64,000 bases of DNA from Henricia sp. BOLD:AAB3569. Lineage: Eukaryota > Echinodermata > Asteroidea > Spinulosida > Echinasteridae. This document shows positions 1,986 to 63,778 of this stretch, in pieces. The stretch's first letter is position 1; each line of letters opens with the position of its first letter. The translations under genes were made by a program, and so were the position numbers. The notes under the pieces are model-generated. The model ran no database searches, was not told the origin of the DNA, and worked only from the letters and a program-made list of their open reading frames with translations. The stretch lies in the NCBI GenBank assembly GCA_037783545.1, contig JBBELK010001002.1, forward strand, positions 124,001 to 188,000. Direction: 5' to 3'.

Positions 1986-2003
1986 TCCACGGTTACTGCT
2001 TAC

Positions 2004-27173: not shown

Positions 27174-30100
27174 CCCAGTGGGCACACGACGTGTTAAAGA
27201 CGTCTTTTTACGGTCGTTTTTTGGTCGTGCGTCGTATAGTGGTCGTTACAACAAAACGACGTCTTAAAGACGTCTTTTTTTCTCTATTTGAAACATCATC
27301 TCCACCCAGCAAAAACAACAAAAACAACGACGTCTTTATGACGTCATTTTACCGTCGTTATCAAATCATCTGTCTGCGTACAGCAGGAAGAACAAAAACG
27401 ACGTCTTAAAGACGTATTTTTTTCTCTACTCTGAAACATCATGTCCACCTGCCAAAAACAACAAAAACACGACGTCTTTACGACGTCGTTTTACCGTCGT
27501 TAAAATCGTGGGTACAAAATACAGCGGGGAGAGGAAAAACGACGTCTTAAAGACGTCTTTTTTTCTCTGTTTGAAACATCATCTTCACCCGGCAAAAACA
27601 ACGAAAACACGACGTCTTTATGACGTCGTTTTGCCGTCTTTATCAACTCGTGTGTTTTACGTACCACAGAGAGAACAAAAACCACGTCTTAAAGACGTCT
27701 TTTTTTTCTTTATCTAAAACATCATCTCCACCAGGCAACAAAAGCAAAAACATGACGTCTTTATGACATCGTTATCAAATCATCTGTGCTACGTACAGCA
27801 GGTAGAACAAAAAAGATGTCTTAAAGACGTCTTTTTTCTCTATCTGAAACATCATCTCCAACTGCCAAAAACAACAAAAACACGACGTCTTTACGACGTC
27901 GTTTTACCGTCATTAGCAAATCGTGGGTACAAAATACAGCGGGGAGAGAAAAAAAAAACGTCTTAAAGACGTCTTTTTTTTCTGAAACATTATGTCCACC
28001 TGCCAAAAACTACAAACACATGACGTCTTTATGACGTCGTTTTACAGTTGTTATTAAATCGTGGGTACAAAATAAAGCGGGGAGAAGAAAAACGGCGTCT
28101 TAAAGACGCCTTTTTTTCTCTTACTGAAACAACATCTCCACCTGCCCCAAAACAACAAAAAACACGACGTCTTTATAAGCAAAAACATGACGTCTTTATG
28201 ACGTCGTTTTACCATCGTTATTAAATCTGTGCTACGTACAGCAGGTAGAACAAAAACGACGTCTTAAAGACGCTTTTTTCTGTATCTGAAACATCATGTC
28301 CACCTGCCAAAAACTACAAAAACATGACGTCTTTATGACGTCGTTTTACTGTTGTTAATAAATCGTGGGTACAAAATACAGCGGGGAGAAGAAATACGAC
28401 GTCTTAAAGACGTCTTTTTTCTCTATCTGAAACATCATGTCCACCTGCCCAAAACAAAAAAACACGACGTCTTTACGATGTCGTTTTACGGTCGTTGTCA
28501 AATCGTGTGTACCGTCGTTAGCAGATCGTGGGTACATGTACAAACTACAGCAGGAGAAGAAAAACGACGTCTTAAAGACGTCTTTTTTCTCTATCTGAAA
28601 CATTATCTCCATCCGCCAAAAACTACAAAAACACGACGTCTTTATGACGTCGTTTTGTCATCGTTATCAAATCATCTGTGCTACGTACAGCAGGTAGAAC
28701 AAAAACGACGTCTTAAAGACGTCTTTTCTTCTCTATCTGAAACATCATTTTCACCTGCCCCGCATATAGCGGGAGAAGAAAAACGACGTCTAAAATACGT
28801 CTTTAAGACGTCTTTATGACGTCTTTATTCTTTAGTCTTTACGACGTCGTTTTACGGTCGTTGTCAAATCGTGTGTACGCGTACTGCAGGGAGAAGAAAA
28901 ACAACGTGTTAAAGACGTCTTTTTATGGTGGTTTTGTGGTCGTGCGTCGTATAGTGGTCTTGACAAAAAAAAGACGTCTTAAAGACTTGATACAACATCG
29001 CCACCTGCCAAAAACAACAAAAACACGACGTCTTTACAACGTCGTTTTACCGTCGTTAGCAAATCGTGGGTACAAACTGAAATCTGCAGCTGGGAGAAGA
29101 AAAACGATGTTTTAAAGACGTATTTTTCTCTATCTGAAACATCATCTCCACCTGCCAAAAAGTACTTTTACATGACGTCTTTATGACGTCGTTTTACGAT
29201 CGTTTGCAGATCGGGTGTGCTATGTACAGCCCAGACAGCAAGCATACATGTACGTCGGCAAAGGTCGGCATAGGTCGGCGAACGTCACCCGTCGGTGTAC
29301 GACGTCGGTACGACGTCAGATATGAGCCGGCGATTTCCGTATTTGCTTTACGTCGGCATCAAGTTAGACATTTGGCCAACATCAATATTTGACGTCAATA
29401 AGGTGTCAGAAATAAATGTCGGTAAGACGTCATATAATGGTTATCACATTACGTCAGTACGGTTGTCAATTGAGCGGCATGGCGTTTGGCCAACATTAAC
29501 TGCAACGTTCAAACAACGTTGGGCCAACGTGGAAATGACGTATAAATAATTAGGTGGTGAATTGACGGGCATGACGTTTATACAACGTTAACGGCAACGT
29601 GTGGGCACATGACGTGTTAAAGACGTCTTTTTTCAGTCGTTTTCGAGTCGTGCGTCATAAAGTGGTCGTGACCAAAAAAATGACGTCTTTTAGACGTCTT
29701 TTTCTAGCCATTAAAAAAAATGCAATGCATTGTGGGATTGCATGTAACTCAACAGATTTACCATGTAAAAATGCTAAATTGCTTCAGTTTTGGCAGTTGT
29801 TTTGATTTTTTTAAATGGGTTGTTGCTTGATAATAGGCAAATTGGCAATTGTCGGGGATGAACAAACTCAAAGTGACGAGTGATTCAAATTTAATTAATT
29901 AAATTTGGTATTCGGTTAGTAGGTGTGTGCCAACCATGGGTTACAGGGTGCAGGTTTTTGTGGAGCATAAATAGAAGTTGCACATAGAGGTAACGTATGA
30001 GTAAAGTATAAGAAGTGTATGAGTAGTGTATGAGTAGTGTATGAGTAGAGTATCAGTAATGTAAGTGAGGTACATGTATGAATATGTATGAGTAATGTAT

Positions 30101-33574: not shown

Positions 33575-33844
33575 CTACAGGCTTGTAATTTGGACCTCAT
33601 CCGATTCGTCCTCGTACGCCGTATTTATGACGCCCGAAGTATTGTCCCCTGATTCTGACTCGGTGTCCGAACCCGACGACCCACTACCGCTGTCTGAGCG
33701 TGTGCTGCCGACGTGGTCCGCGGGCTCGGTGTGCGTTTTCTCCGGAAGGGGTGAATCCTTGTACGCGGTGTTTTTCTCGTGGACGGAGTTTTCTACCGCA
33801 GCGTACGTAATACCGAGTGCTGCCGCTATATCATCCGAGGTGAC
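33575..33844 (-). CDS. Last exon of the cadherin-23-like gene: PDZ-ligand tail
   Basis: Acceptor TCTACTTCAG precedes 33844; the exon is phase 0 and ends at TAG. It encodes VTSDDIAAALGITYAAVENS, then a low-complexity SGSGSSGSDTESESGD stretch suited to casein-kinase-type phosphorylation, and ends VQITSL. The spacing of two NTAY(K/E)D motifs may mark tyrosine-based adaptor or endocytic sites; this is inference. Confidence 0.8.
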   Translation of the reverse strand, partial: VTSDDIAAALGITYAAVENSVHEKNTAYKDSPLPEKTHTEPADHVGSTRSDSGSGSSGSDTESESGDNTSGVINTAYEDESDEVQITSL

Positions 33845-36800
33845 CTGAAGTAGAAACAAATAACTCAAGTAATAAAAACTTCGTAAAAAATTGGCAGGAT
33901 CAACCATCCGGACCCGACCGATAGGGCCTCGAAGTTTACTAGCTTACCTGTGATGCGAAACAAACTTGCGTGTCACGGAACATCTTGACCGGCTTCTCAC
34001 TGCTACGATCATCGGGCGGGCTAGTCTTAATCTTGGCTTCACGGCCGGCCTCGGGATCTAGCTCCATATCGCCGTCTCCCAGGACGGCATGGCGTAGTTT
34101 CTTCTCTTGAACATTGCTCCATTGTCTACAAAAGAAAAGAGGAAATAATAGCGCAGGTCGGATTTGTGCAGCGGTATTAAAGGCACAAGATCGTCAGCAA
34201 TGCGCGCGCGCCAAATGTGTGCCACGAAATACGCAGTTGCATGCTTTTGCTATGGAGCTGCGTATTTCGTGGCACGAATTTGGCGCGCGCGCATTGCTGA
34301 CGACCCTGTGCCTTTAAGGGGAGTTCACACTATTGCGGAAACTTCACACTGCCGCGCTGCGCTCATCGCATTGCATGAGGTCCCAAATCGCCGATCTTTC
34401 CAAAACAGAAATTTCAACACCAGTAACACGAGGCTTCTCTGATACCTCATTGGATGCGCGTTGGAAAGGTCAGCGCACCGCGGTCAAAGTTCAATAAATT
34501 TGAACTTTGACCCAGCTCAAAAGTTTTGCGCGCCGCGACATGCTGCGCATGAGCGGCAAACTAGTGCGCAGCCTATCGCGACACGCAAAACATTTCGAGC
34601 TGGGTCAAAGTTCAAATTTGTTAAACTTTGACCGCGGTGTGCTGACCTTTTCAACGCTCAGCCAATTAGGTATCAGAGAAGCCCCAAGTTGCCGGAGTTA
34701 AATTTTCTATTTTGGAAAGATCGGCGATTGGGACCTCTTGCAATGCGGTATGGTGAGCGCAGCGTGGCAGTGTGATTTTTCCGCGATAGTGTGAACTCCT
34801 CTTTATTGGCAGAAAACTGGACCAAAATATACTCACTGCCGCACGTCTTTGGTCGCGTAGTACACCAGTCCAATCACAACGACCAAAATAACGTAAACGA
34901 TGACGGCCATCGCATAGGTTGGAAGTGGGAGTTTCGTGGCGCCCTCTGGAAGAAGTTCCGTCACCTGCCCGGTTAAAATGTCACCCAAAAACTACAGTTT
35001 ATAAATCATCATTTAAGCCCGGTTCATACTTCATGCGAAAGCGAACGCGAACGCGAATCTCACGTCAATCTGACGTCAAACATTTCGCGGCGAACATTCG
35101 CGCAAGTTGAAACTAGTTCAACTTTCTGCGAATTCGCTGCGCGAAACATTCGCTGTGACGTCAAATTCGCACGCGTTCGCTTTCGCAAGATAAATTTATA
35201 GACTGCCGAAGTGAATACGTCATCTTTTGTTGTTGCCTAGGCAATGGATCTATATACAATACAAATCACTAAACCGTGTCCCTGTGCTTTTGCAATGGTA
35301 CTTTTTCCGACGGCCATGATGTTTAGAACCAATTGCCATGGCAATACGTCACACTTCAGCTGTCTATTGAATCAATAATATTGATTACCTTATATCCGAG
35401 CATGTTGACGAGTACTTGATTGTTCAATTCAAACATGAGGTAGAGTTCGTTGGAGCGGAACGCTAGTGGCATGACCACCGAACCAGTCGGGTTCAACACG
35501 AAAAAATGAACCGTAACCTTGCTATTCACATCGGTTGTTGATTCGATATTCGCAATGATGACGTCTTTGGGTCTGGTGACCAATCACATTTAGAGATGGT
35601 CAGAAATGGCGCCAAACACTTTGAAATAATCAGAATTAAATGTAGGCTGTTTTCGAAACGGATGGCGTCGTCTCTGGCCCAGGATTGGTGTATCTCAAAA
35701 AATGAACGTTGCGAAAGAAACTTCAACATGAGCTTGCATCTATATTTAAGGAATGCAGTAGAACTTAAGCAAGTAAACTGCATACAGACAAGACAGAAAG
35801 TTTCAAAAATTAAACTTAATCCCGACGACTCCAGTAATTACAACAAAAAAAACGGCCACAGTTAACCAGTGTGTGAACATCCACTTCTACTTTCAAACAT
35901 CCTTTCATTCCGATATTCGCATCAGTTTTTGTGGCGCTTTTTGTCGCCCCAAATTGCATAATCTTGAGCAGAACGCACCTTTCAGTATAGCAACATTATG
36001 CTTAACAAGAATTCCTATCAACTTTATTATTAATAAAGATCGTAAGCTGGAATAGAAACAAAATGATGGTAAGCATGAAGGGAAAAAAAAAAAAAAAAAA
36101 AAATCTTCTCCACGAAAGGTAACTAAAATTGAAACCGTCCACTAATCATGCACTTTGGGACTGCGCGCTCTTGGCTATTTGCCGTTCCGATTTTTGTGTT
36201 ATCGGGAACACCTATACAATATTGCAAATATTTATTTGAAGGCGTGTCGAGTTGACTGTATACACGAATCTTGACTTGATATTTATTTTCCTGGGGACGT
36301 GTACAATGAAATCTATTTACGGAGGTCATTATTGGTATCAAAGGTCAAAAGATCGGCAATTCTAGATAATCCTAACAAACAAACATTTTGTGCGTTTGTG
36401 TGAATAACGACTGGTACCCTGACTCGCTTGTCTTGACGTGCACATTTAGTATTTGAATTACACGGCCTAAATAATGTTGATGTGCAGTAATATATATACA
36501 ATAAACAAAACACAACCCGAGGCTCCAATTAGCCTTTTACGTGATTAACATAAACAGTGTCAAGTGTACTGACGTACTTCCCACATTCACATTAGTACCC
36601 AATTTATTGACTAGACTAAATTGTTGTTGCCATGTGGTGCACATGGCAGGTTGTGTAGTACTCAATACCGCGTTGAACGTATAGCAGGGAATGGCATAAG
36701 GCCATCAGACTGTTAGTGGCTATATGTGTCATTGCATGCACCACGTAGCAACAACAGTGTAGTATGTAACTTTCTAAACAACACCTCGATTTGATTGTGA

Positions 36801-39800
36801 ACAATTCAGGGCGCCAGCCATAGTGCAAAGGTTAACTGAATCAATACGTCGGCCATCTTACCCCAGGAAAGAAAATGCTTTGCCTAGACTGCTTCCCGGT
36901 CGCTTGAATTTCGCTTAAAGATAGTATACATGATTGGTAAACTGTTACAAATAGTTGTATTCCCTTGTGTGATTGAAGATATGCATGATTAAAACCAATC
37001 TGAGCAAAAACCAGCTCCGTACTTCGTCTAACTTTTGAGAAAACAGTCAAAAAAGGGTTTGCAGTCATTTAGCCCCAAAACCACTTCGCCCTAAACCATT
37101 TCGCCCTGAACCACGGCCTGTGCACGAAGTGGTTTTGGGGCGAAGTGGTATTTGGGAAATGTAGTGTTTGGACGAAGTAATTTGGGGCGAAATGGCACTC
37201 GGACGAAGTGGTTTGGGGCAAAATTGCACTTGGGCGAAATGGTTTTGGGGCGAATTTAATTTTCGTCTCATGAGACGAAAACTAATTGTTTTACTCATTT
37301 CTCAAAGACTATAGCACTTCAGACAAAACCATTTCAGGGGAAGTTTTCTACGGTCATCATGTTTATATTGTGTATAGTTAGTCGTAAATCTGTGAACATT
37401 TCTGATTTTCGAGATTACCAATGATGTATACTGCCTTTAACTGTATTCTTGAAAACAGTATAACCAGTCTAGGCAAGGTATTGTCTTTCCTGGATGGCGG
37501 ACGGTAGTTTTTTTTAAACAAAAGATGGCTACTCGATATACGTACTCAACTCCAACGATGACGTAGCGACTGGACACATTAGCCACCACAACCTTTAACA
37601 TAAGTTGCTGTTCTTCGCTAAACTGCCAAAAGAAAAAAAGAAAAAAATCCTCATCACAATCGAAGTCGGACAGTATTTTGCTTTCAGTAAACCAATTTGT
37701 ACAAGTCCGTTTATCCTTTTAATGTTGTTGTAAAAAAAATTAAATTCTTTTTTAAAATTTAAAATTTTGTTTTTACCTTATTAACGTCTGTGAATGGATC
37801 TAGAACGAGTCGCCCTCCGCCCGTGGTCATGTACGTTTTACACTGCGGGAAAATATTAATAAAATATTAATAAAAAGTGCAACAAGATCACATTTTTTAA
37901 AAACACAACCCCCCGCCCCCTTCCCTCCCTTAATTTTGTTTAATGGGTGTAGAGAATTTGATACCATTCCATTTGTCAAATTATTCTCATTCGAAATATT
38001 TAAAATGATATCGTAAAAAATACAGTTTAGAAAACTAATTTAGTAAACGTGTTTTTCCACTCTGTGGTTGCGCACCGCGCAATTCAACCGTATAGCATGC
38101 TTATGTTATGTACTTACATTGAGACCTTGAGTTCATGCATTTATTGGTTCTGCAATAAACTGTTTACTAATATTTACCTCTGCATTTGTGAATTTGTCCA
38201 AGCAGTCTGGTGCAGCTGGAAATAAAACAGAACAAATAATTGATTTTGACTTGAAGGTACAGGCTCGTCAATGCGCGCGTGAGGCCAAATTCGTGGCACG
38301 AAATACGCAGCTCCATATAGCAAAGGCATGGAGCTGCGTATTTCGTGGCACGAAGTTGGCCTCACGCGCGCATTGATCATCCTGAGATATCAGGGAATTT
38401 GCACTCTGCAAAGCGACATGACAATACCCTGAGGAAATACACGCAAATCTGTGGAGCGAGCCAACTCACGCCCGAGTCATTTTGATTTAATTTAATCAAT
38501 TCGGTCATGTTATGCCAAAAAGAAACAATTTCTATACTTTCCAGAAATTGTATTGGGTTCCGTTCCTTATGACTGTCCCATTCCTACCAAACTTTCAAAC
38601 GACAAACCTTATTTACTCCGCAGTTTTTCAAATTAATAACAGGGATGCATGCTGACGAATGTAATGGAACGGATTCCCCAGTATGCTTTAAATAGCAGCC
38701 AATCGTCGACGCGGACAACGGCCAGCATTACCGAGTACACATGTATCACATGCATGCACGGTGTTTACAATCTGCGCGCGTTACATTTGAATGCCTGCAA
38801 TCGTGCTACAATGCACTGCAAGCGTCCGGATTGGTCCAGCAGAGGCGACAAGATTTCTGTCGCTAGTCCCACCGCCAAATGGGGCCTTTTTCAACAGGGC
38901 CACTGTACGCAGGAGTTAGGGAGTGCGTTAAAGGGGCACTGTTGCAAGAGGATGGCATTGATGTGCCTCTGTTTTTTATTGGGACCAAATGTGTCACTAC
39001 GGTAACGGATGTCGTATAAACACATCTCAAAATCGCAATCGCCGTCTACACTTTATTTGAGAAACTAGTATAAATACAAATGGAATCCCGAATCCTGTAA
39101 ATCGTAATCGATTTAAAAAAAATTGATTTGGAAATAACATAATTCATAATCGAACGACCCGGGACTGAGTCGAGGCGCCTGATGAAGCCAAGCGAACGCA
39201 CTGCTACATTTAAATGCACAGAATGTTTTTCACCGTCAAAATCAGCCAACGGGATGTAATGAAAGATAATACACATAATGGTTATACATATGGTTGCATG
39301 CCGAGCTTCTGGAACCATTTTGGGGGTATCTTTCGTCGATGCTCGACACACAAGAACAAAGTACAGTCTCGTGCATTTTAACGTCTCTTGGGAGATTTTG
39401 TTAATCTTTTACGCGCTACATCCAAATGTGAGCAATTTCAATCGACGACTTAACAATAATAATTCCAATAGAGTCCCTCAAACGACGGGCATTTCCCTTG
39501 TTCGAGAGACTCCACCTTGCTCTACAGCACTGTGCTCTACAGTAAAATTCCGATACGTCGATTCAGAAGTGATTTGTAATGTTCAAGTCAAAATTCTGCG
39601 TAACTCAGAATATGACAGAAATTGAGACTTCATTCGGAGTTACGCGGTGAATTCTTAGAATAAATATATAGCCTGCTGCCACATTATGTAGCGTTTGACT
39701 CGTCAACATAGGCCTAGTCTAGTGATAGAACGACTGTGTAACGAAATGTTCATCTCAATTCCACGTACCTTCAGCGAGAAGCACAAACCCAATTAGACAG

Positions 39801-39829
39801 AGAATCGCACAACTCCCAAGACGCTTCAT
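33575..39829 (-). CDS. Small type I membrane protein resembling the membrane-proximal end of cadherin-23, eight exons, 333 aa
   Basis: Coding exons in order: 39769-39829, 38178-38215, 37777-37842, 37546-37622, 35389-35572, 34837-34964, 33948-34125, 33575-33844. All splice ends are GT/AG and phases 1,0,0,2,0,2,0 match, giving 1002 nt. Residues 1-20 are a signal peptide. Residues 21-158 form an ectodomain with cadherin-like GRLVLDPFTD and LKVVVANVSS (sequon near 70) and then a segment (VTVHFFVLNPTGSVV, LGYK) whose strand-helix pattern resembles the membrane-adjacent, SEA/ferredoxin-like domain of cadherin-23 and protocadherin-15. Residues 159-179 are one membrane helix. The 154-residue tail has NTAYKD (269) and NTAYED (318), a Ser/Asp/Glu-rich stretch and a C-terminal ITSL, a class I PDZ ligand; cadherin-23 ends ITEL and binds harmonin. 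Gene structure is strong; the family is inference from pattern and memory, and no calcium-binding cadherin repeat chain is present. Confidence 0.7.
34181..34313. mobile_element. Hairpin element, TTAA family, copy 2 (complete)
   Basis: AGGCACAAGATCGTCAGCAA opens and the complement closes (ending TGTGCCT). TTAA lies directly outside both ends (34177-34180 and 34314-34317). The arms include CACGAAATACGCAG. A TTAA duplication is typical of piggyBac-type insertion; the superfamily is inferred. Located in an intron of the cadherin-23-like gene. Confidence 0.75.
34318..34803. mobile_element. About 485-bp palindromic element
   Basis: GGGGAGTTCACACTATTGCGG at the left (its first 20 bases) pairs with CCGCGATAGTGTGAACTCC at the right. 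The arms continue for more than 200 bp through CGCCGATCTTTCC and AGTTCAAATTT-type words. It abuts the TTAA element at 34181-34313. It ends about 35 bp from the membrane-helix exon (34837-34964). Confidence 0.7.
35017..35193. mobile_element. Second copy of the GCCCGGTTCATACTTCA MITE, right end lost
   Basis: Left end and interior match the complement-symmetric copy at 31801-31990; the right arm stops at CGCTTTCGCAAGATAAATTT without the terminal CGGGC. Lies between the membrane-helix exon and the preceding ectodomain exon. Confidence 0.65.
35573..37545 (-). other. Long intron of the cadherin-23-like gene
   Basis: Intron between 37546-37622 and 35389-35572. Contains a poly-A run near 36085, an inverted-repeat element at about 36842-37515 (TTGCCTAGACTG ends) and, within it, a run of repeats. 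No further exon supported. Confidence 0.6.
37070..37260. repeat. GGGCGAAGTGGTTTTGG-type short tandem repeat
   Basis: About ten degenerate units of roughly 17 bp (TTTGGGGCGAAGTGG and variants GCACTTGGGCGAAATGG), with the first three inverted (CCACTTCGCCC). Non-coding. Confidence 0.65.
38256..38383. repeat. Hairpin element, TTAA family, copy 3
   Basis: GGTACAGGCTCGTCAATGCG, GTGAGGCCAAATTCGTGGC and CACGAAATACGCAGCTCC with the reverse copy. Ends are eroded. Forty bases from the acceptor of the second exon of the cadherin-23-like gene. Confidence 0.7.
38384..39768 (-). other. First coding intron of the cadherin-23-like gene
   Basis: Runs from the signal-peptide exon to the second exon (38216-39768 in full). 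Two frames of about 100-118 codons (38649-39005 plus, 39046-39351 minus) lack any domain, codon signature or splice partner. Nothing else assigned. Confidence 0.5.
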
Positions 39830-40282: not shown

Positions 40283-40368
40283 ACTCGCGCCAAATTCGTG
40301 CCACAAAATACGCAGCTCCAGATATTTACTTTCGAGCTGCGTATTTCGTGGCACGAATTTGGCGCGTT
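40283..40368. repeat. Hairpin element, TTAA family, copy 4 (inner part)
   Basis: CGCGCCAAATTCGTGCCAC and AAATACGCAGCTC pair with the copy TTTCGTGGCACGAATTTGGC. Outer arms are missing, so only about 85 bp remain. Confidence 0.65.
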
Positions 40369-45700: not shown

Positions 45701-48548
45701 GCGAACCACCTCAATATTGATACATAGATCGGCAAGTGGCGGCTAAGCCAGAGACATTGGGAAAATTCCCCTTCTCTCTCGAAAGAATGTTCTAGGATCT
45801 TTAAGATGCATTACACAATACTGGACCTAGGGCTTTACATCCCATCCACAGGATGAAGCAATTGGGGTAAAGCGCCTTGCTCAAGGGCACAAGTACCTCA
45901 AGTAGTCTGAAAACCACAACCTTCGGGTGTTTCCACCTGAAGTTTGTAAGTTAATGACCCAAACTGCCACGATACTTATAACTCATTCTGCAAATTACCT
46001 GCACTATGCTATTAAAGAAGAAAATATAGCAATGTATTTGTATCCGTATATCATCCTGAAACCTGTGCACATCAAGTTGAATTTGCGAAAAGGCTACATG
46101 AATACATACATCGTACAGACTTCATCTGTGTCAAAAGTCGGAAGGTTCCATGTTGTGCATGGCCACAATTTTCATTCAGACATGCTGGTAAATGTACAGC
46201 ACAAAATCAAATATGTTTGGCATACGTAGATTAAATATGTTTGGCAAAACATATCTGTGTCGAAAGTCGGAAGGTTCCATGTTGTGCATGGCCACAATTT
46301 TCATTCAGACATGCTGGTAAATGTACAGCACAAAATCAAATATGTTTGGCATGTAGATTAAACAAACTTTACTTATTGCATATGTGCGAAGGGAATGAAT
46401 TTACTTGCTGAAGTGGTTTAAAATTGGAGTACAAACTGCATGTTACAACATGAACTGTCTGCCATTATAATACATGTATTTCAGCAAACATATCAACATT
46501 CACTGTCCTTATAGGTACCCATTTACTCCTGGGTTGAGAGAACCCACGTTTAGAACTAATCATTAGGGAGGTATTCGCACCGTCACGGATACCGATACGT
46601 CATGACTTTATGCGCGTCTCGTGACGCGTAACTGTATATAGTACACATGTTTTCATATGCGTGAACAACGGTTATCGGCCTCCATACGCGTAGCATAAAA
46701 ATGGATACCGGTTATGCAGATTTTTCGCTTTTTCCGTGATGGATTAATAAGTTTTATGCATTTTGTTTCTTTGTGATGTATCTTCCATGAATACCGATCG
46801 AATTTAATGAATCATTCCCACGTGAAAGTGAGGAAAATCTGCTGCAAACAAAGCCAAGCGCAGAGCATATTTAGCAGATGAATGTATGCACGTAGTCACA
46901 CTGAACCCAGTTCAGTGAGCGCATCAACGTGAACGGTTACCGTTATCCGTATTCGTCACCTTGCGAAACCTCTGTATTGTCTCAAATGCAATCCACGCCA
47001 CATGAATTTACCTTTCTTTTTTGTAGAAAATGAAATGTGTAACATGCAGTTTGTGCTCAAAACACGAGAATGGCTAAAAAAAATTCTAAGCAAATTCTTA
47101 AATTGTTTGTTTTTATAGGGAAAAAACCCTTAATTCTTACCTATAAATTGATAATCATTGAAAAACCATAAACAAGTTTGTGTGCATTTTAAAAGTTGAA
47201 CTAAATTAACCTGGTTTTATGAGGAAATAATTCAGTACTCAATCATCAGAAACCAGAGGATTGGCCAAAAAATGTAATTTTGTTTTTGATAAAAATGTGT
47301 CTGACAGCTTGGGCTGAGTTTTTGTGATCATGACTAGAAATTGGCAGTGGATCCAGGCACTGTCTGGGTAGTGCTTGAAATGTCCATAAGCCTAGAACCG
47401 CCACTGATTTCCAGTTATACTTGCAAAAACTTGACTCGGGCTGTGCAACATCCAACTCATTTTAGAATAAGTCACATTTTTTGGGGTAAATTTTGGGTTT
47501 TTCCTGATCAAATCTGCAAATTTTTTGCTGTAACATTTTACATTCTAATAAAACTAAACATGTGGAAATTTTCCTGTCAACCCATTTAGTGATCACGTAA
47601 ACTGGACATGTTTAAATAAACCTATGTGTGTGACATTTTGAAGCATTTCCGGAAAGTCAAGTTTGACTGTCGATTTCTCTCTTGTTGCAAAATAATTTTC
47701 CTTGAATTTTATATCATTGGAAAGCCCTGTTATTCCTCTTTACGATGTGTCATTTGTTATGATTAAGCAATTGGGGGATGTGCAGTACAGCTGAATACGG
47801 GGCGGGTGTAATGTCACAAAATGCATTGCTATTGTCAAAAAGTGCATTGACACATTCCCATCCTCAAAGCAAAAGGGGAATGCACGACAATAGCAGTGAA
47901 TTTTGTGACATTTCACCCACCCCTGTATTCCGCTATACTACACATCCCCCAATCGATTAATCATAACAAATGACACATCACTGTAAAGAGGAATAACAGG
48001 GCTTTCCAATGATACAAATTTCAAGGGAAAGGATTTAGTAACAAGAGAAAAATCGTCAGTCAAACTTGACTTTCCGAACTTTTTGAGGAGTTTAGCAAGG
48101 TAGTCATCTACAGGGGGCACCTTATAATAGTACATCATTTGTTTCAAATTTATCTGAAAGTTCCTTTTTACAGGGGGAAAATGTATGTTACGTGTGTGAC
48201 GTCGGAAATGTCACACACGTGACAGACATTTTTTCCCTGTAAAAAGAAATTTTCAAGTAAATTTGAGACAAATGCTGTATTATATAAGGTGACCCCTGTA
48301 GATGACTTCCATGCTATATTAATGCAAAAGTATTCACCAACAGGAAATTTATTGAACATAATACAGTTCAAAAAGCTACACATGATTTCCAGCTAAAAGG
48401 TACTTTTTTGTACGACTGGTAAATTGTTTTAGGCAAATGGAATAAGTTATGAGAAATTTAACTAAAAAATCATTTTGTTTTGGTATGAAATGCATTGTAA
48501 ATTGTGTTGATCTGAAATTAATTTGTTTTGTAATTTTCTTTTTCAGAA
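42669..48548 (+). CDS. Putative four-exon gene, 134 aa, unrecognised
   Basis: Exons 42669-42936, 43313-43413, 44968-45001 and 48547-48548. Donors GTACGT, GTATTT, GTAAGT and acceptors TGCTTTCAG, CTCCTCAG and TTTTTCAG fit, phases 1, 0, 1. The protein-like part reads DELPTAGQDAGDDTG, SSTLVGFLGWSRVLPYDGG, then NTLNWKKFLKDFTVFDHQPR and ends QFK; the stop is formed across the last junction (T then AA). The first 30 or so codons lie in a MITE and are doubtful as coding, so the true start may be another upstream exon. Poly(A) candidates AATAAA are at about 48991 and 49248. It could also be a fragment of a larger gene or a spliced non-coding RNA. No domain recognised. Confidence 0.3.
43430..44280. repeat. 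Two adjacent palindromic elements of one family
   Basis: AAGATATACTTCCCACT with GCAAATGTTGCATTTCTGAG is followed by the inverted copy (AAAGCAACATTTGCGAC, AGTGGGAAGTATATCTT) at 43445-43775. The whole arrangement recurs at about 43905-44275. Both have GGTAATTTCCTTAAAATC near their right ends. Non-coding, in an intron of the putative plus-strand gene. Confidence 0.7.
45740..45910. repeat. Dispersed repeat with CTTGCTCAAGGGCAC tail
   Basis: GAAAGAATGTTCTAGGATC and AGCGCCTTGCTCAAGGGCAC; the former matches the repeat at 7080-7140. Words like this occur at the ends of many invertebrate dispersed repeats; the class is not determined. Confidence 0.5.
46124..46352. repeat. 100-bp direct duplication
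   Basis: About 100 bp beginning TCTGTGTCAAAAGTCGGAAG and ending AAATATGTTTGGCAT is repeated at an offset of 128 bp with a single change in the quoted part. A 100-codon open frame reads through the first copy but has no coding features. Confidence 0.75.
46566..46976. mobile_element. 410-bp element with GAGGTATTCGCACCGTCACG-type ends
   Basis: The left end GAGGTATTCGCACCGTCACG matches the complement of the right end (CGTATTCGTCACCTTGCGAA...CCTC) imperfectly; the arms continue as GGATACCG. Non-coding. Confidence 0.5.
47651..48310. repeat. Two consecutive long palindromes
   Basis: The first (about 47651-48079) has arms of about 210 bp, with AAAGTCAAGTTTGACTGTCG outside and GGGGATGTGCAGTACAGCTG inside. 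The second (about 48098-48310) pairs GTCATCTACAGGGGGCACC with the complement near 48300 and has a TGTGTGACGTC...ACACGTGAC centre. Both lie in the last intron of the putative plus-strand gene. Confidence 0.7.
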
Positions 48549-50178: not shown

Positions 50179-53100
50179 TCATCCTGATTTCTTCAACTTG
50201 TGTCTGCGGGGGAAAAGTAAAAAGTTTTTAAACAGTATAGTAAATCTACAGATGGCACAAATGCAACATTTCCATATTTGTTGAATCAGATAATGTTTTT
50301 CTATGCTGTAAACTCAGGCATGCAACTGTGTTACAAGGGAAATGCAAACAAATCTCCGACTTTGTACAGTGTTTTTTTATTTTCCCGATGGTGCAGATGA
50401 GGAAAAGTTGCATGCCTGTAAACTGCAACTCCTGAAGGCCCAATGGTCATTTTTCGAAAACTGGAGATACTTTATACAGTAAAGAGGGAATTTTGGCAAT
50501 ACAGACCATATTTTCGAGAAAATACCTTTGTCTGGTCTCAAAATAAAAGAAATAAGTTTCAGTTGTTCTGAAGAGATAACTTAGGCCCAAAAAGGGTTAC
50601 AAATAGTGTGACAACATGCCTTTCTAAAAACCCTGTGATCAAATTTCCAATATACGCTCGTAACCGGGACGGACACTTGTGTTACATTTTAGGCCGTCCC
50701 AGTTACGAGTGTATATTGGAAATTGGTATACAGGGTTTTTAGAAAGGCATGTTGTCACACTATTTGTAACTCTTTTTGGGCCCAAGTTATCTCTTCAGAA
50801 CAACTGAAACTTATTTCTTTTATTTTGAGACCAGACAAACGTATTTTCTGGAAAATATGGTATGTGTTGCCAAAATTCCCCCCTTACCGTGGAAAATGCC
50901 AGTATATTGGGGCTCACCGTGGGTCAATCTTGGCCACTCTGAAGACGATGCAGTGAGGTCTGCCAAAACAGATCTTGAAAATATTCAGCTCCTGGTCGAC
51001 ATCGCTTGGCACACATGTCTTTGTCACCTGTCACAAATTAAGAAAACATAACGACTACGGTATAAAATGCTGCAAGTTTAGAGAAAATTAAAAGTTGATG
51101 AATTTTTCAATTTGGCTGGAAAAATGAAGACACGTTAGGTTGCTTACAAAGATTCACATCTGATTTGTTTAAAATCATGGATTGCCTCACGCATGGTGGA
51201 GTTTACAAATAAACTGCTTTGGAGAAATTAACGTGAAGTGTAGAGCAATTAAAATGCAAGATGAGAGGCATTTCCGCAAATATTTGAATGTGTAGTGGAA
51301 TCTTCCCCAATGAGTGTTCACTGTATAAACTGCAGGCTACATTCACAATCAGAGTTGATTGGGATGGTAGAGACGACCCTACCGGGGTACATCAGTATGG
51401 ATTTTCAGCAAAGACAAAAAAGATTCAGAATTTAACTTTGAAACGTACCAAAACAGGTTGGAAACGGGCAAAAATTGTTTTCCTGATAATTTCCGAGACA
51501 TTTTTTAAAAAGTCATATATTTTTATGCCGATTTGTGCAAATAACTGCTGGACTAACCCCTTGTGATTTAAAAAAATAAAATTATTGTCATAAAATTGAC
51601 CCAAAATGGATTTGCAGTAAAGATGAACAGAACAATGGACTGTGACTTACTGATACTGTAGGTCAACACTGGCCAGATTTCTTCTCCCAGCAAACTCAAC
51701 ATGATGGGTGGTGCATATGAACAGTAGCCACAGACTAAAAGGGAAAGAAAATATATAAGTTAACTAAGTTACGGTACTTACAAATCAGAGCTACATGTAA
51801 GACTTCAAACCAAATATCTAACACTAAAGTGGAAAATGTGTGGAGGTATGAATGAACTTAAAGCAGAATTGATCCAAACAAAAGATGGTTTATTTTAGCT
51901 AGTTCATCCACACTGGTACAACCGCAGAAATGCTATCATCTAACTAAATATGACGGTGCCAAAACAGACAACAGGCCCGAAAATGTTATGGAGTTTGAGC
52001 GGAATTTGCTCAAAGATGTTTTAGTAATTAAAAAAGAAAATACAAAAATGTGCCTTACAAAAGTGCTTGAAAGATCTGCTCGGCTGTGGGTTCGAGTCCC
52101 ACCCAAGCACTGGTTTTTAATGATTCAAACTGACAGTCCGACACCAGCTCACTGAGTGGGCGAGTGGTTAAGACAACTGCTCTACAATGCAGAAGGCTGT
52201 GGGTTCGAGTCCCACCCAAGCACAAGGTTCTAACATAGTTCTTGGGAAAGCGCTGAGCACAGAGCAAAAATAAATATCATCAAAAAGGGGCAAGGGATTA
52301 GTTGTGATGCCAACTGCTCCACGATTCAAATAGACCCTTTTGCACCAATGCACTGAGTAGTTGAATAATTTGAGACAACTGCTCTAGGTTCAAGTCCCAC
52401 CCAACCACATTTTGATGTTTTTAGCAGTTCTTATAAATTTGACCAAGAAAGGGCAGTTGTGATACCAACTGCTCCATGATTCAGACTGGCCCTTTGATAC
52501 CAGCGCACTGAGTGGTCAAGTGGTTGAGGCAACTACTCTAGATTAGTTGTGATACCAACTTCCATGATTCAAATTGGCCCTTTGACACCTGCGTAATGAT
52601 TGGTTGAAAGGTTAAAAACAACTGCTCTAGAATTCAGAAGGTTGTGGGTTCAAGTCCACCCAAGCACAGGTTTTAACAGAGTTCTTGGGAAAGCTCCGAG
52701 CATAAAGTGCTGATAAATTGCATCAGAAAAGGGCAGGGGATTAGTTGTGAAACCAACTGGGTCTTTGAGACCAGTACACTCAGTGGTCGAATGAGTGAGG
52801 CAACTGTTCTAGGTTCCAGTCCCAACTGCTCCATGATTTGAACCAGCACACCGAGTGGTCAAGTCAACTGTTGTAGTAGAATGTAGGAGAATGAGGATAT
52901 GGGTTCGAGTCCCACCCAAGCACATTTTGATATTTTTAATTGTTCTTATAAATTGTCGGAAAAGGGCAAGGGATTAGTTTTGATACTAAATGTTGCAAGA
53001 ATCAAACAGGCCCTTTGACACCAGCACACCGAGAGGTTGAGTAGTTAAGGAAACTGCTTCAGAATGCAGAAGGTTGTGGGTTCGAATCCCACCCAAGCAC

Positions 53101-56100
53101 AAATTGTTAACATAATGATAGTTCTTGGGAAAGCACTGAGCAAAAGTGCTGTAAGATTATATTGGGAAAGAGCAAGCTATTCCTAATGTAGAGAAGTAGT
53201 AACAAGCTGATGATTACAATACCTAAAAGCTGCTCATGATGACAAATGAATTACAACAAGAGAGAGACATGTATGTGGAGTCCAATAGTCCAGGTGAGGC
53301 CAAGCATGGGCAGCAACACAAGGGAGCTTCATAAATTGGTCCTGTTAAAAGGAAATCAAATGAAATGCATGAGTATGTAAAGCTCATCCCACAAATTATG
53401 TTCATAACGAACGGGACAAACTGTTAGAGAAATAAACAGGCTTTCCAATGATATCATAGCACACAATGCTAGAAATACAGTAACTTTTTAGACCCTCCCT
53501 CCCCCAACCCCCCCTGTACGCATGGCGTACACAGTGGCTCCAACCTATTCACCCCTGTACGCATACACATTCCATATACCTCAGCATTAGTAAGCATTGG
53601 TAAATGGTTCAGTACTACATGTACGGTATAGTGCTATATACTACTAACGATTCGCATGTCGCCTCCAAAATCTGAAATAAATGAGATTGTTTTTGCATTT
53701 TTGTTTACACAAACTGCAGATTTAATGGGAAAAACCTAAATTGATGAGTGACAAAAATGTGTGGCCTGTCTAATATGTTTGTCAACTTGTCCAATTCCTT
53801 TCTCGTTTTAGTAAAAGCAAATTTTCAGTTTGCGTACATACGCATTGGCTTGGACCCTCCCCCTGCCACCCTGTACGCAATGTCAACAACCCCCTCCCCC
53901 CTCCTTTATGGACGGCCCCTAACAGAGACATGATGATCAACAAAACAAAGTTTGCAAAAATTCCTTGAAAGCTGTATTCAACTCTTGTAGCTTTTTGGCT
54001 GGAAGTAAATGTTTTTGGACTCTTGAGCCACTGTGAGTAACATGCCGTAGTAGAAACAAACATATTTGGGAAATATGGTATGTAAATGAGCAAATTTTCA
54101 AATTAAAATTTTGATGTCAGTATTAACTCATTTCATTCAATGCATTGGGGCATTCTGGGTAGCATCATGAAACCATGGCCACTATGTGACTTCTAAAAAA
54201 TAAAACTGGAACTCAGTTTCAGGGGTATACACCATGCATGAATAAACATGAGAAAATATTGGGGCATTCTGGGTAGCATCATGATAAAACCATGGCCATG
54301 ATGTGACTTCCAAAAAACAAAACTGGAACTCAGTTTCAGAGGGACACCATGCATGAATAAACATGAGAAAATATTGGGGCATTCTGGGTAACATCATGAT
54401 GAAACCATGGCCATGATGTGACTTCCAAAAAACAAAACTGGAACTCAGTTTCAGAGGGACACCATGCATGAATAAACATGAGAAAATATTGGGGCATTCT
54501 GGGTAGCATCATGATAAAACCATGGCCATGATGTGACTTCCAAAAAACAAAACTGGAACTCAGTTTCAGAGGGACACCATGCATGAATAAACATGAGAAA
54601 ATATTGGGGCATTCTGGGTAGCATCATGATAAAACCATGGCCATGATGTGACTTCCAAAAAACAAAACTGGAACTCAGTTTCAGAGGGACACCATGCATG
54701 AATAAACATGAGAAAATATTGGGGCATTCTGGGTAACATCATGATGAAACCATGGCCATGATGTGACTTCCAAAAAACAAAACTGGAACTCAGTTTCAGA
54801 GGGACACCATGCATGAATAAACATGAGAAAATATTGGGGCATTCTGGGTAGCATCATGATAAAACCATGGCCATGATGTGACTTCCAAAAAACAAAACTG
54901 GAACTCAGTTTCAGAGGGACACCATGTATGAATAAATATGAGAAAATATTGGGGCATTCTGGGTAACATCATGATGAAACCATGGCCATGATGTGACTTC
55001 TAAAAAACAAAACTGGAACTCCGCTTCAGGGGAACACCATACATGAGCAAGGGCAAAATAGTAAATTTAGCATGCTGCAGTGACATGTAAATAAGTAGCA
55101 GATTTGCATAATTTTGATTAAGGCAAGAACAGTACATCAATATGTCAGTATTAATTAATGGTGCAGTAATATGTAAATTAAGCATTTATTTGCATAAATT
55201 TGAATACGAACAATTGAATACTACACAAACTATTAAAGTTAAATGCCTGCTGCAAGATAGACTACTCTACCAGGGGCTGACCTCCGTAGAAATTCAAGGT
55301 GCCATTTTAGTAAGCAAACTACCGGTAGATGCGCCTTATGTCCGTTTGACATGACTCTCGCGGTTGCTAATTTTTTTCTCATCCCATAGTTTGGTTGTTT
55401 CATTTCAATGGTGATTAGGTACCATACCAAATATTGTGTTTGTTACTTTGCTCAGTTGCGGTCCCATGCAACAATAAGAGAACAATTGGGTTCTTGAGGC
55501 AAACCTGAGGGAGTATACCACTGTGCCTTATAGCTCAGATGGTAGAGCGTCTGCCCTGTAGCTCATCTGTCTGGTGAGTCAGAGGTCTTGGGGGGAAAAC
55601 CTAAGGGAGTATACCACTGTGCCTTATAGCTCAGATGGTAGACCGTCTGCCCTGTACATGTAGCTCATCGATCTGTCTGGTGAGTCAGAGGTATTGGGGA
55701 AAACCTGAGGGAGAATACCACTTTGCCTTATAGTTCAGCTGGTAGAGCATCTGCCTAGTGTGTCATATGTCTTGGGAAAAATCTGAGGGTGTACATGTAT
55801 ACTACTGTGCCTTATAGCTCAGCTGGTGGAGCGTCTGCCCGGTGTGTCAGAGGTCTTGGGGGAAAACCTGAGGGAGTATACCACTGTGCCTTATAGCTCA
55901 GCTGGTGGAGCATCTGCCCGGTGTGTCAGAGGTCTTGGGGAAAACCTGACAGAGTATACCACTGTGCCTTATAGCTCAGCTGGTGGAGCATCTGCCCGGT
56001 GTGTCAGAGGTCTTGGGGGAAACCTGAGGGATATACCACTGTGCCTTATAGCTCAGCTGGTAGAGCATCTGCCCGGTGTGTCAGAGGTCTTGGGGAAAAT

Positions 56101-57180
56101 CTGAGGGAGTATACCACTGTGCCTTATAGCTCAGCTGGTAGAGCGTCTGTCTGGTGAGTTAGAGGTCTTGGGGAAAATCTGAGGGAGTATACCACTTTGC
56201 CTTATAGCTCAGCTGGTAGAGCATCTGCCTGGTGTGTCAGAGGTCTTGGGGAAAACCTGACGGAGTATACCACTGTGCCTTATAGCTCAGCTGGTAGAGC
56301 ATCTGCCTGGTGTGTCATAGATCTTGGGGGAAACCTGAGGGAGTATACCACTGTGCCTTATAGCTCAGCAGCTGGTGGAGTGTCTGTCTGGTGAGTCAGA
56401 GGTCTTGGGGAAAATCTGAGGGAGTATACCACTGTGCCTTATGGCTCAGCTGGTAGAGCATCTGCCTGGTGTGGCAGAGGTCTTGGGGAAAATCTGAGCG
56501 AGTATACCACTGTGCCTTATAGCTCAGATGGTAGAGCTTCTGCCCAGTGAGTCACAGGTGTCAGGTTGGAATCCCGATAAAGCTCTTACGACTTTTCTCT
56601 CATCCCAAGTGTGGATGCCGCTGTAACTATTCGCCGCGACACAGATTACACTACGAGAGGCATGTCAAACAGACACAAGGCGCGTCTAGTTTGCTTATTA
56701 CTAAAATGGTGCCTTTACATACTTCACTTTATTGAATTGATTTCGCATGGGTGGGCTATCTTGCACTTATGCTGCTATATCATCTTTGAGGAAACCCTAC
56801 CCATGCATGCCTATAAGCGGAAGCTAGACAAGTTTTAATACAGTGGAAAGTCACCATAAATGGGCATCGTATCTGAACCATACAAGTGTTTGTTTTGGTG
56901 GCGTTTAACGCGAACAAATGATTGGGAGCCATGAGCGATGTTCACTGTAGCTGAATGTTCTTTTTGGTGTTCATTATAGCGAAATTCCACTGTAATAAAA
57001 TTGGAATGATGGCCAAAAACTCACCTCTCCTGTGTTTTCAGTATCCATGGCAACACGTCCATTTTTGTAGTGTGTAATATGAAGCTCCACAGTCTGTGGG
57101 CTCCATCTCCAATCTGTGAATACATAATGAACAAAAATTAGCAACTGTGACAGAAATGCAACCAATCCAGGCTTTGACAT
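50179..57180 (-). CDS. Putative small secreted protein, three exons, 96 aa, unrecognised
   Basis: Exons 57025-57180, 50918-51027 and 50179-50203 join in phase (0, then 2) with donors GTGAGT and GTGAGC and acceptors TGTGACAG and CCCCGCAG. Residues 1-21 (starting MSKPGLVAFLSQLLIFVHYV) look like a signal peptide. The rest includes PQTVELHITHYKNGRVAMDT, then CVPSDVDQELNIFKICFGRP and VAKIDPRHKLKKSG before TGA. Three cysteines are present, all in exon 2. The 6-kb first intron contains three tandem arrays and could hide further exons, so the length is provisional. Another exon-like segment at 51650-51718 (between AG and GTAAGT) does not fit the frame and may be alternative. No family recognised. Confidence 0.4.
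50494..50873. repeat. 380-bp palindromic MITE
   Basis: The left arm TGGCAATACAGACCATATTT pairs with the complement ending at 50873; arms of about 170 bp surround GTAACCGGGACGGACAC. Shares its inner text (ACAACATGCCTTTC, AAATTTCC) with 6599-7030. Lies in the second intron of the minus-strand model. Confidence 0.75.
52055..53140 (+). repeat. Array of tRNA-derived SINE-like units
   Basis: About seven to eight units carry an A-box-like GAGTGGTTAAGACAACTGC and a B box in GTGGGTTCGAGTCCCACC, whose T-stem (GTGGG/CCCAC) is perfect, followed by CAAGCACA. Best copies: 52147-52223, 52848-52923 and 53022-53102. Between them come GTTCTTGGGAAAGCGCTGAG and ATAAAT, a tail like those of SINEs that use CR1/L2-type LINE machinery, and AGGGGATTAGTTGTGA-type linkers. 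The acceptor stem is not paired, so these are not functional tRNA genes. Units are shortened or lack a box in places. Confidence 0.75.
53141..54137. other. No gene seen; one repeat end
   Basis: 53831-53921 ends CTTTATGGACGGCCCCTAAC and has GTACGCAATG words typical of a dispersed element end; related text is at 53490-53560 (CCCCCTGTACGCATGG). Otherwise unassigned intronic DNA of the minus-strand model. Confidence 0.4.
54138..55045. repeat. 115-bp satellite, eight units
   Basis: Units begin TTGGGGCATTCTGGGTA and have period 115. Two unit types alternate irregularly: GGGTAGCATCATGATAAAAC (type B) and GGGTAACATCATGATGAAAC (type C). The order is A (54144, diverged), B, C, B, B, C, B, C. The outermost units are most diverged. 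Open frames on the minus strand repeat with the satellite and are not genes. Confidence 0.9.
55520..56590 (+). repeat. Tandem array of 13 tRNA-like units
   Basis: Thirteen units of about 77-95 bp begin GCCTTATAGCTCAG and continue CTGGTAGAGCATCTGCC, a good tRNA D-arm and A box. The T-arm part has become GTCAGAGGTCTTGGGGAAAA in twelve units, destroying the B box. Only the last unit (56513-56580) keeps a near-B box GGTTGGAATCCC. A linker CTGAGGGAGTATACCACTGT separates units. This is a satellite grown from a tRNA-derived SINE head, not tRNA genes. Confidence 0.85.
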
Positions 57181-58166: not shown

Positions 58167-59080
58167 CTTAAGGGCGGTCCGGTTGGCGTAGTGGTTCTTT
58201 CCTCGCCTTTCCTCTGGCGTACCCGTTTCGAATCCTGGGCGTGTATGTGGATTGGGTATACCCCTAGAACTATGGGGGATAATGTATCCCCCATAGGTAA
58301 TGTTTGTTTCCAATATGGCGGCGCCTGAACTTTAAGATCGGACAGAAACGTTTTCGGCTAGCGCAATAATCCGCTGCCCAATCGCCACCAAACTCCGTCT
58401 GATAGTTCTTGAGACACTCACCTTGCGTGTGTCTACGGAATTTCGGTACCATCTGTCCATTAAATTCTCCTAAAAAATGTTGGGAAATGAACGGGAACAT
58501 GTGCGATGCGTCCACATGCGTGATCCAGGCATTCGGTAAAAGCCGGAGTTGCCGGAACTCCCAGAGTTACCGGAACTGCTTGGATTTTTTATTGGTCCCA
58601 GCTGTTCCGGGAGTTCCGGCAACTCCGGCTTTTACCAAATGCCTGGATCACGCATGTGGATGCATCGCACATGTTCCCGTTCATTTCCCAACATTTTTTA
58701 GGAGAATTTAATGGACAAATGGTACCGAAATTCCGTAGACACACGCAAGGTGAGTGTCTCAAGAACTATCAGACGGAGTTTGGTGGCGATTGGGCAGCGG
58801 ATTATTGCGCTAGCCGAAAACGTTTCTGTCCGATCTTAAAGTTCAGGCGCCGCCATATTAGAAAAAAGTTATCACACCAAGGTGAGTGTCTCAAGAACTA
58901 TCAGACGGAGTTTGGTGGCGATTGGGCAGCAGATTATTGCGCTAGCCGAAAACGTTTCTGTCCGATCTTAAAGTTCAGGCGCCGCCATATTAGAAAAAAA
59001 CAACATTACCGGTACCTATGGGGGATACATTATCCCCCATAGTTCTAGGGGTAGATTGGGTTAGCAGTCCCTATAGTATG
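58167..59080 (+). mobile_element. tRNA-derived SINE split by an inserted element
   Basis: 58167-58258 is a SINE head (A box GGTTGGCGTAGTGG, B-box-like GTTTCGAATCC, then GTGTATGTGGATTGGGT). The SINE text resumes at 59054 with GATTGGGTTAGCAGTCCCTA. The uninterrupted family sequence, GGATTGGGTTTGCAGTCCC, is seen at 42150-42180 in complement. Confidence 0.7.
58259..59053. mobile_element. 795-bp long-inverted-repeat element inserted in a SINE
   Basis: TACCCCTAGAACTATGGGGG opens and its complement closes the element; GATTGGGT is duplicated outside (58250-58257 and 59054-59061), an 8-bp target duplication. Arms of about 270 bp enclose a second, GC-rich palindrome around 58540-58645 (CCGGAGTTGCCGGAACTCCC). 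The right arm carries an internal 132-bp duplication (58749 against 58881). Long arms and 8-9-bp duplication suit Mutator-like or hAT/P-type elements. The matching open frames in both arms are mirror images of one non-coding sequence. Confidence 0.75.
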
Positions 59081-59480
59081 ACGAGCATCTTTAAAGAATT
59101 GTAGAGTATATATTCACAAATACAAAAAAAATTTGTGCTCATCTTTAAAGAATTGAGAAGTTTATTATGGCTTCAGAACTCGTGTACAAACAGACTGGAA
59201 AATTTCTAAGTGTTTCCTCACAAAATCTTAAACTATTCTCACCCAAAATATTGGTTTTCCCCATCAAATCTGCACAGGTTAACCCTTTTAACGATGCTTA
59301 ATAAGTCAACAGGGTCAGCTTCTCAACTCTTACCGATAGGTATACAGTATCAGTACAAAGTGCATAACATTACCTAACTATACTATAGGCGTATACCAGT
59401 AGCCACTCGGCGACGAAGCTGCACAGCCACAGGCGCCGACCCACCATGCGCCGACGTTGTTCACAAAGATTCATGACGAA

Positions 59481-59740
59481 ATTTATTAATATAAGCAAAA
59501 TCGATCGTGCCAACTGGCTTCGGCGCCCCTCAGTTTGGCGTGAACAGACGAGCAGGCGAACATCTCTTGTTCCAAAAAGCAGGCCACGGAATCCCCAAAT
59601 TTGACACAAAACGTGTCTTTGTTCATTGTTTTTGCTCGTATAAAGGCCATTTCGACATTTTCGCGGCCATTTTGAAGGAGGTGCAAAGAGCGCCCTCAAG
59701 CGACGCATGTGCGTGCACAAAACATATCTAAGGCGGCTTC
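59481..59740 (-). other. CpG-containing segment with start-like AAAATGGCCGCGAAAATG
   Basis: On the minus strand the segment reads CTTCAAAATGGCCGCGAAAA, a strong start context, giving only MAAKMSKWPLYEQKQ before a stop. Two other frames stay open over 66-116 codons in both copies (62155-62392 is the second). The in-frame 3-bp difference between copies keeps these frames open, but no domain or splice site supports them. Possibly a decayed first exon or promoter carried by the repeat unit. Confidence 0.25.
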
Positions 59741-60205
59741 GCGCACTGGATACAACTTCGCAATTAATTTGTTTGACTAATTAAATCGATGGCTTTGACT
59801 ATAAAGCTGGTTGATTGTGATTCTATATGAGTTGTTCTTATGCTTCAGTTGAAAAATCTAAATTAAAAGTGCCTTCTTGTCTGAATAAATCGCATTTTAA
59901 GACCCCTTCTTATTTCCCAATTTCTCTAAGATTAAGACGGCTTGATTCCGGCACTAGATACAACCATGGTATACAACTTCGCAATTAATTTGTTTGACTA
60001 ATTAAATCGATTGCTATGACGATAAAGCTGATTGATGATGATTCTACATGAATATTTCTTATATTACAGCTGAAAAATCGTAACAAAAAGTGCCTACTTG
60101 TCTGAATAAATCGATTTTAAGACCCCTTCTTATTTCATAAATTCTCTAAGCTAGAAGGCGGCTTAATTCGCGCACTAGATACAACTCCTCATATTCAGTC
60201 GTTGT

Positions 60206-60380
60206 ATGTGGAATATGTGGAGCGGGAACCAGTCTACGCACATACATTGAAAGATCTAGACTGGTTCCTATCCACATATTCCACCCAGGAGAATAGACTG
60301 GTTCCCGTCCACATATTCCACACTTTCGCAATAAGCGAACCAATCTATAGGGATCGGGAACCAATCTATGAAAGATCACG
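60206..60380. repeat. Palindromic GGAACCAGTCT repeat zone
   Basis: GGAATATGTGGAGCGGGAAC pairs with the copy GTTCCCGTCCACATATTCC near 60300. AGACTGGTTCC recurs three times and ACCAATCTATAGGGATCGGG follows. The counterpart in the second unit is at about 62878-63055. Confidence 0.75.
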
Positions 60381-60763
60381 CCCACATATCACGAACACCG
60401 CGACCCCACACATTGAAATATCCCACATATATGTCGAAATATCCCACATATATTTTTAACATTGCACATATATATCATCAACATCGCATACATATGAAAA
60501 AACATCGCACACATATATTTAACATCGCACATATATTTGTGCATTATCGAATATTGCAACGTTCCACACGCCATAGTTACGGTAGTATATTGCTTTGCGC
60601 CTTCGGAATTCGCAAATATGTTTGCAAATGTTTGTCGTACATTTTGTCACATACTTTGTTGCATACTTGGCATGCCTAGGGTGTTTTTGGTAGGAAGCTA
60701 TAGAGGGTCTAATTACGCGCGTCGCCAGAAAAAGATGGGCAACTGGCTTTGAAAAAATTTTAT

Positions 60764-60975
60764 GTGCGACATCGCAAGTATTTGCAAAGATATTTGCGAC
60801 AAAATGTGCGACATCGCAAGTATTTGCAAAAATATTTGCGACAAAATGTGCGACATCGCAAGTATTTGCAAAGATATTTGCGACAAAATGTGCGACATCG
60901 CAAGTAGGTATTTGCAAAGATATTTGCGACAAAATGTGCGACATCGCAAATATTTGCAAAGATATTTGCGACGTC
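60764..60975. repeat. 42-bp tandem array, copy 1
   Basis: Five units with period 42: TGTGCGACATCGCAAGTATT then TGCAAAGATATTTGCGACAA and AA. The fourth unit has four extra bases. Each unit is partly self-complementary (TTTGCGAC against GTCGCAAA). Frames on both strands are open because 42 is a multiple of three. Confidence 0.85.
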
Positions 60976-61101
60976 CTTTGTACGTAACGATATTCTGAGC
61001 AGTACCTGCGTACTTCTGATTTCTACTTCTGGTCGCAAAATTTCGGCCTATAGACTGCGCGATATTCAACTCGTTTTACACGGGGTCACATTTTTATTTA
61101 C

Positions 61102-61179: not shown

Positions 61180-61180
61180 C

Positions 61181-63652: not shown

Positions 63653-63778
63653 CTTTGTACGTAACGATATTCTGAGCAGTACCTGCGTACTTCTGATTTC
63701 TACTTCTGGTCGCAAAATTTCGGCCTATAGACTGCGCGATATTCAACTCGTTTTACACGGGGTCACATTTTTATTTAC

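Follow-up and report, generated by a model that had tools for sequence, protein, structure and literature searches.

Gene organization and surroundings

On the minus strand of the window (the whole 64-kb stretch of DNA that was analysed), between positions 39829 and 33575, eight exons with GT/AG borders and compatible phases join into a predicted protein of 333 amino acids. The joined frame is 1002 nt long, comprising the 333 codons and a stop, and the exons start in phases 0,1,0,0,2,0,2,0. This frame contains one stop, which is its last codon, whereas 15 and 20 stops interrupt the remaining two frames of the joined exons. The predicted protein consists of a signal peptide, an ectodomain of about 135 residues, one membrane helix, and an acidic/serine tail of 149 residues with a C-terminal ITSL. 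Two hydrophobic stretches are present in the 333 residues, the signal peptide and residues 158-179, the latter scoring as a membrane helix. The exons and the elements they encode are the following:

39769-39829, minus strand: exon 1, start codon and signal peptide (residues 1-20)
38178-38215, minus strand: exon 2, signal cleavage region and first ectodomain residues (APDCLDKFTNAE)
37777-37842, minus strand: exon 3, ectodomain, with the second Cys of the N-terminal pair and GGGRLVLDPF
37546-37622, minus strand: exon 4, ectodomain SEEQQLMLKVVVANVSSRYVIVGV, a helix when modelled alone; weak donor
35389-35572, minus strand: exon 5, ectodomain core, five β-strands when modelled alone; weak acceptor
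34837-34964, minus strand: exon 6, linker and membrane helix; weak acceptor
34854-34919, minus strand: membrane helix, residues 158-179 (coordinates derived from the exon model)
33948-34125, minus strand: exon 7, first part of the cytoplasmic tail
33575-33844, minus strand: exon 8, acidic/serine tail and stop codon
33794-33811, minus strand: ITYAAV, ITIM-like motif, residues 256-261
33761-33772, minus strand: NTAY (NxxY), residues 269-272
33614-33625, minus strand: NTAY (NxxY), residues 318-321
33578-33589, minus strand: C-terminal ITSL, class I PDZ ligand (class by comparison with the CDH23 and PCDH15-CD1 ends)

The eight exons with matching phases, and the succession of signal peptide, small ectodomain, single membrane helix, acidic/serine tail and ITSL, had been described in a sequence-only reading of the locus and were all recovered. 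As an open gene model, this observation is borne out; it remains a prediction, of which the middle is the least certain part.

The absence of the long cadherin chain, also claimed in that reading, was borne out by the lack of any DxNDNxP motif, strict or relaxed, in the six frames of the 64-kb window. DxD-type motifs were likewise not found in these frames, and a loose pattern of four residues, LDRE, had six matches that are scattered, five on the plus and one on the minus strand. From these motif searches, no cadherin chain is evident beside the gene in the 24 kb that lie 5' of it. Orthologues of CDH23 and PCDH15 are present in echinoderms according to a genome-wide study (PMC10734073).

Intron 6 contains a fold-back element (34316-34803), a palindrome of 496 columns with 84% identity. 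Three smaller fold-back elements occur in or beside the gene at 34177-34317, 38260-38384, and 40286-40366, and share related versions of a core resembling GCCAAATTCGTGCCACGAAATACGCAGCTCC. Three other palindromic stretches, some 420-570 nt long, are located at 47650-48076, 50479-50890, and 58303-58867, where the identity to their own reverse complement is 83, 90, and 93%, respectively. A direct duplication of about 2.46 kb (58875-61323 and 61543-64000, 99.1% identity) reaches the end of the window. Tandem repeats comprise two minisatellites, at 54144-55046 (period 115, 7.9 copies) and 55671-56559 (period 78, 11.3 copies), and a diverged array with a period of about 142/283 and GACGTC palindromes at 27253-28760. 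At 1993-4498 on the minus strand, three open frames contain SRCR domains (Pfam E-values of 1.9e-31, 6.7e-24, and 2.1e-31); they are probably exons of one scavenger-receptor-type gene.

Support for the gene model

The signal peptide MKRLGSCAILCLIGFVLLAEA crosses a phase-1 junction. When the ATGs of the window were filtered for a signal peptide followed by a phase-1 donor, a single one out of 2486 passed, that of exon 1, with a filter that was devised after exon 1 had been seen and is therefore not blind. In-frame stops are found immediately upstream of this ATG, and an ATTAAA hexamer lies 60 nt downstream of the stop codon.

The G+C content of the coding sequence is 0.51, versus 0.41 in the introns. 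Exon 8 shows a clear excess (none of 368 intron windows equally high), as does exon 7 (9 of 413), and exon 6 a moderate one (28 of 441). No excess was found for exons 1-5, which are equalled by 24-42% of the intron windows.

The strength of the splice sites was compared with that of minus-strand GTs and of AGs on a rough, self-typed scale. By this rough measure, good sites are the donors of exons 1, 2, 3, 5, and 7 and the acceptors of exons 2, 4, 7, and 8, while the acceptor of exon 3 and the donor of exon 6 are of intermediate strength. The exon 4 donor is weak, as 16% of minus-strand GTs score the same or higher, and so are the acceptors of exons 5 and 6, with 33% of AGs being equal or better. 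The exon 4/5 junction therefore has weak sites on both sides.

Sequence comparison of the ectodomain

The ectodomain had been likened in the sequence-only reading to the membrane-adjacent domain (MAD) of cadherin-23 (CDH23) and to a SEA domain, and a profile comparison had been proposed. At the cut-offs, no Pfam family was found for the whole protein, the ectodomain alone, or the tail. With E-values of up to 10 allowed, no family was reported for the ectodomain alone, neither PF23206 (PCDH15-like domain) nor SEA, the HMMER filters dropping most matches above E ≈ 0.1 even with this setting. The profile comparison with membrane-adjacent domains was thus negative, whereas the CDH23 MAD segment used as a control passes PF23206 with 29.2 bits versus a cut-off of 27. 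The control segment shows four differences over 116 aligned residues with the CDH23 chain of PDB 8tri. With a small HMM of the CDH23 and PCDH15 MADs, the score of the ectodomain was equalled by 28 of the 448 shuffles that were scored (500 were made, 52 of which had no score). Local alignments were at chance level, with 66-67 shuffles out of 1000 as good for the PCDH15 MAD and 118-188 out of 1000 for the CDH23 MAD.

Global alignment of residues 41-155 gave z-scores of 3.6 with the CDH23 MAD, reached by 5 of 2000 shuffles, and 3.7 with the PCDH15 MAD, reached by 1 of 2000; as a reference, the two MADs aligned with one another have a z-score of 5.5. Both alignments end at the same place before the membrane. 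The joint z-score exceeds those of all 363 decoy windows from Escherichia coli proteins, and those of all 748 decoy windows at three gap settings, with one thin margin (5.87 vs 5.55) and decoys that are solely bacterial. With single MADs, 3 and 0 of the 363 decoys, and 1-4 of the 748, scored at least as high as the ectodomain.

The similarity depends on the linker that precedes the membrane. Windows that keep it (22-155, 33-155, 55-155) have z-scores of 3.2-4.3, and those without it drop to 1.6 and 2.2 (residues 41-146) or 2.3 and 1.9 (residues 55-146) with the CDH23 and PCDH15 MADs, respectively. The z-scores are 2.9 and 2.3 for exon 5 with the linker taken alone, −0.1 and 1.1 for the half encoded by exons 3-4 taken alone, and 0.6 and −1.8 for the reversed sequence. 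With a MUC1 SEA domain, the global z-score is −0.25 and the local score is equalled by 339-364 of 1000 shuffles, which gives no signal of a SEA domain. The similarity of the ectodomain to the base of cadherin-23 is weak in these alignments, and neither a MAD nor a SEA domain is established by them.

Predicted structure of the ectodomain

The MAD has a ferredoxin-like strand-helix-strand-strand-helix-strand fold. Structures were predicted for single exons only, each from one sequence. The model of exon 5 consists of five β-strands (mean pLDDT 82, pTM 0.59; about 65 for three of the five models), without any helix where the second MAD helix would be. Comparison of this model with the PDB named no family. 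Exon 4, modelled with four intron-derived residues, forms a helix (mean pLDDT 76) where the first MAD helix would be. Short isolated peptides often model as helices.

Hydrophobic moments of the two candidate helices are greater at the β-angle than at the α-angle (0.33 vs 0.08 and 0.29 vs 0.22). The MAD helices of CDH23 show the reverse pattern, with α-angle moments exceeding β-angle moments (0.59 vs 0.24 and 0.56 vs 0.20). Most of the secondary-structure evidence thus disagrees with a MAD, the exon 4 model agreeing for helix 1. Of the likeness to a MAD, the global z-scores of 3.6 and 3.7 stood, but they depend on the linker, and neither the PF23206 profile, the HMM, the local alignments nor the moments concurred. 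Because of the alignment and structure evidence taken together, the assignment to a MAD is considered weak and a largely β orphan domain is preferred.

Cytoplasmic tail

The tail has three tyrosines, one in the ITIM-like ITYAAV and one in each of the two NTAY motifs. Two or more NxxY motifs are found in 0.23% of 20000 shuffled tails, and one xxxY tetrapeptide occurring twice in 0.12% of them; 11% of the shuffled tails contain an ITIM-like motif and 3.5% end as class I PDZ ligands, this set of motifs having been picked after inspection of the tail. No similarity to the human CDH23 tail was found, as 1846 of 2000 shuffles score as well.

The ITSL end conforms to a class I PDZ C terminus, a feature of harmonin-binding proteins. 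The PDZ ligand had been compared to the ITEL of CDH23; the class is indeed the same, although it is the one also reached by the shuffled tails mentioned above. The ITEL end of CDH23 is reported to be important for the binding of harmonin, MAGI-1, and PIST (PMC2967513). PCDH15-CD1 ends with STSL, and PIST is reported to be bound by a single PCDH15 isoform out of three that have class I ends (PMC5102745); therefore, the class of the ligand does not identify the partner.

Proposed function and alternative readings

It is rather likely that the locus encodes a small, non-cadherin orphan type I single-pass receptor-like protein with a largely β ectodomain and a docking tail. The open frame, the membrane topology, the lack of DxNDNxP motifs in the window and of a Pfam family for the protein, the β model of exon 5, the non-helical moments, and the repeated NxxY motif are counted in favor of this reading. 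Against it are counted the frequent chance matches to ITIM-like and class I motifs, the exon 4 helix, and the similarity to MADs, which it leaves unexplained. If the exon 4 helix holds, the ectodomain is not all β, because this exon alone models as a helix.

The ectodomain would be a small, largely β orphan domain, perhaps with one disulfide near its start, and may bind a partner at the cell surface or in cis. To judge by its motifs, the tail probably docks to SH2, PTB, and PDZ adaptors: the tyrosines, when phosphorylated, would recruit SH2 or PTB adaptors, and ITSL would tether the tail to a PDZ scaffold, harmonin being one possible scaffold among many. The predicted secretory-pathway protein would act as a short adaptor-docking receptor or co-receptor. 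On this reading it would add to the small membrane proteins that carry a docking tail and belong to no known family, and its interest would be local.

Two alternatives concern the gene model itself. It is improbable that the middle is wrong, with the joins between exons 4, 5, and 6 unused and a different ectodomain being made: the weak exon 4 donor, the weak acceptors of exons 5 and 6, and the fold-back elements in introns, including that of 496 columns in intron 6, point in this direction, but the phases agree across seven joins and the exons form one open frame. It is very unlikely that the exons from 2 or 3 onwards form the 3' part of a gene that continues beyond the window, exon 1 being spurious or an alternative start. 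Exons 1-5 cannot be told from introns by their G+C content, an acceptor-like stretch is seen by eye just upstream of the ATG, and short forms of mouse Cdh23 are reported to arise from internal promoters (PMC2743805). Against this stand the in-frame stops upstream of the ATG, the lack of DxNDNxP-type motifs in the 24 kb upstream, and the selection of exon 1 alone from 2486 ATGs by the signal-peptide and donor filter, albeit a post hoc one.

Another alternative concerns the nature of the ectodomain. The protein could be a stand-alone MAD, that is, the last CDH23/PCDH15-type extracellular domain endowed with its own signal peptide, membrane helix, and harmonin-type PDZ ligand, the cadherin chain having been lost or never acquired. 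The global z-scores, maintained in the other windows that keep the linker, and the joint z-score above all the decoys of both sets are consistent with this proposal, as are the helix of exon 4 at the position of MAD helix 1 and the resemblance of ITSL to the reported ITEL (PMC2967513) and STSL (PMC5102745). It is nevertheless unlikely, since PF23206 detects the CDH23 control but not the ectodomain, the HMM and local alignments are not significant, the z-scores fall without the linker, some bacterial decoys match or beat the single scores and one joint margin is thin, strands are modelled in place of the presumed helix 2, the moments of both presumed helices are unlike the helical ones of CDH23, and the tail differs from the CDH23 tail. 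If true, the base of a tip-link-type cadherin would have turned into a small receptor, able to share or compete for the same scaffold in an invertebrate. A free-standing MAD would show that the domain can live alone, and would offer a natural partner of small size with which the tip-link-anchoring scaffold could be studied. To our knowledge, the MAD is known only as part of long cadherins. Open-access literature searched for a free-standing MAD or CDH23 MAD28 returned papers on long or engineered cadherins and on hearing, from a limited library in which absence proves little.

Comparison with known systems

Like MUC1 and other SEA proteins, the predicted protein has a small extracellular domain adjoining the membrane, and GSVVM in exon 5 is reminiscent of the SEA cleavage motif. 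It differs from them by the absence of a Pfam SEA match and by the z-score with the MUC1 domain given above. PCDH24 (CDHR2) is likewise described as having a membrane-adjacent domain, MAD10, before its membrane helix, but it has nine cadherin repeats (PMC8691648); it is likened here by description.

The mouse CDH23 isoforms v2 and v3 are likewise short, and are reported to preserve the membrane-proximal or the cytoplasmic end. However, v2 retains seven cadherin repeats and v3 is without the membrane helix (PMC2743805), and both derive from a long gene, of which there is no sign here.

The present protein differs from PCDH15 in having no cadherin motif and no PF23206 match, and its stretch aligned with the second helix of the PCDH15 MAD models as β-strands. 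The two have in common a weak end-to-end similarity of the ectodomain with MAD12, and the TSL shared by ITSL and the reported STSL end of CD1 (PMC5102745).

The likeness to cadherin-23 proposed from the sequence was retained in part. The ectodomain does not match PF23206, no DxNDNxP motif is present in the window, the tail is dissimilar to that of CDH23, and the helical pattern is different. On the other hand, the anatomy is that of the membrane-proximal end of CDH23: a type I protein with a domain of about 110 residues before one membrane helix, bearing a marginal end-to-end similarity to the CDH23 MAD, and a class I PDZ end as reported for ITEL (PMC2967513).
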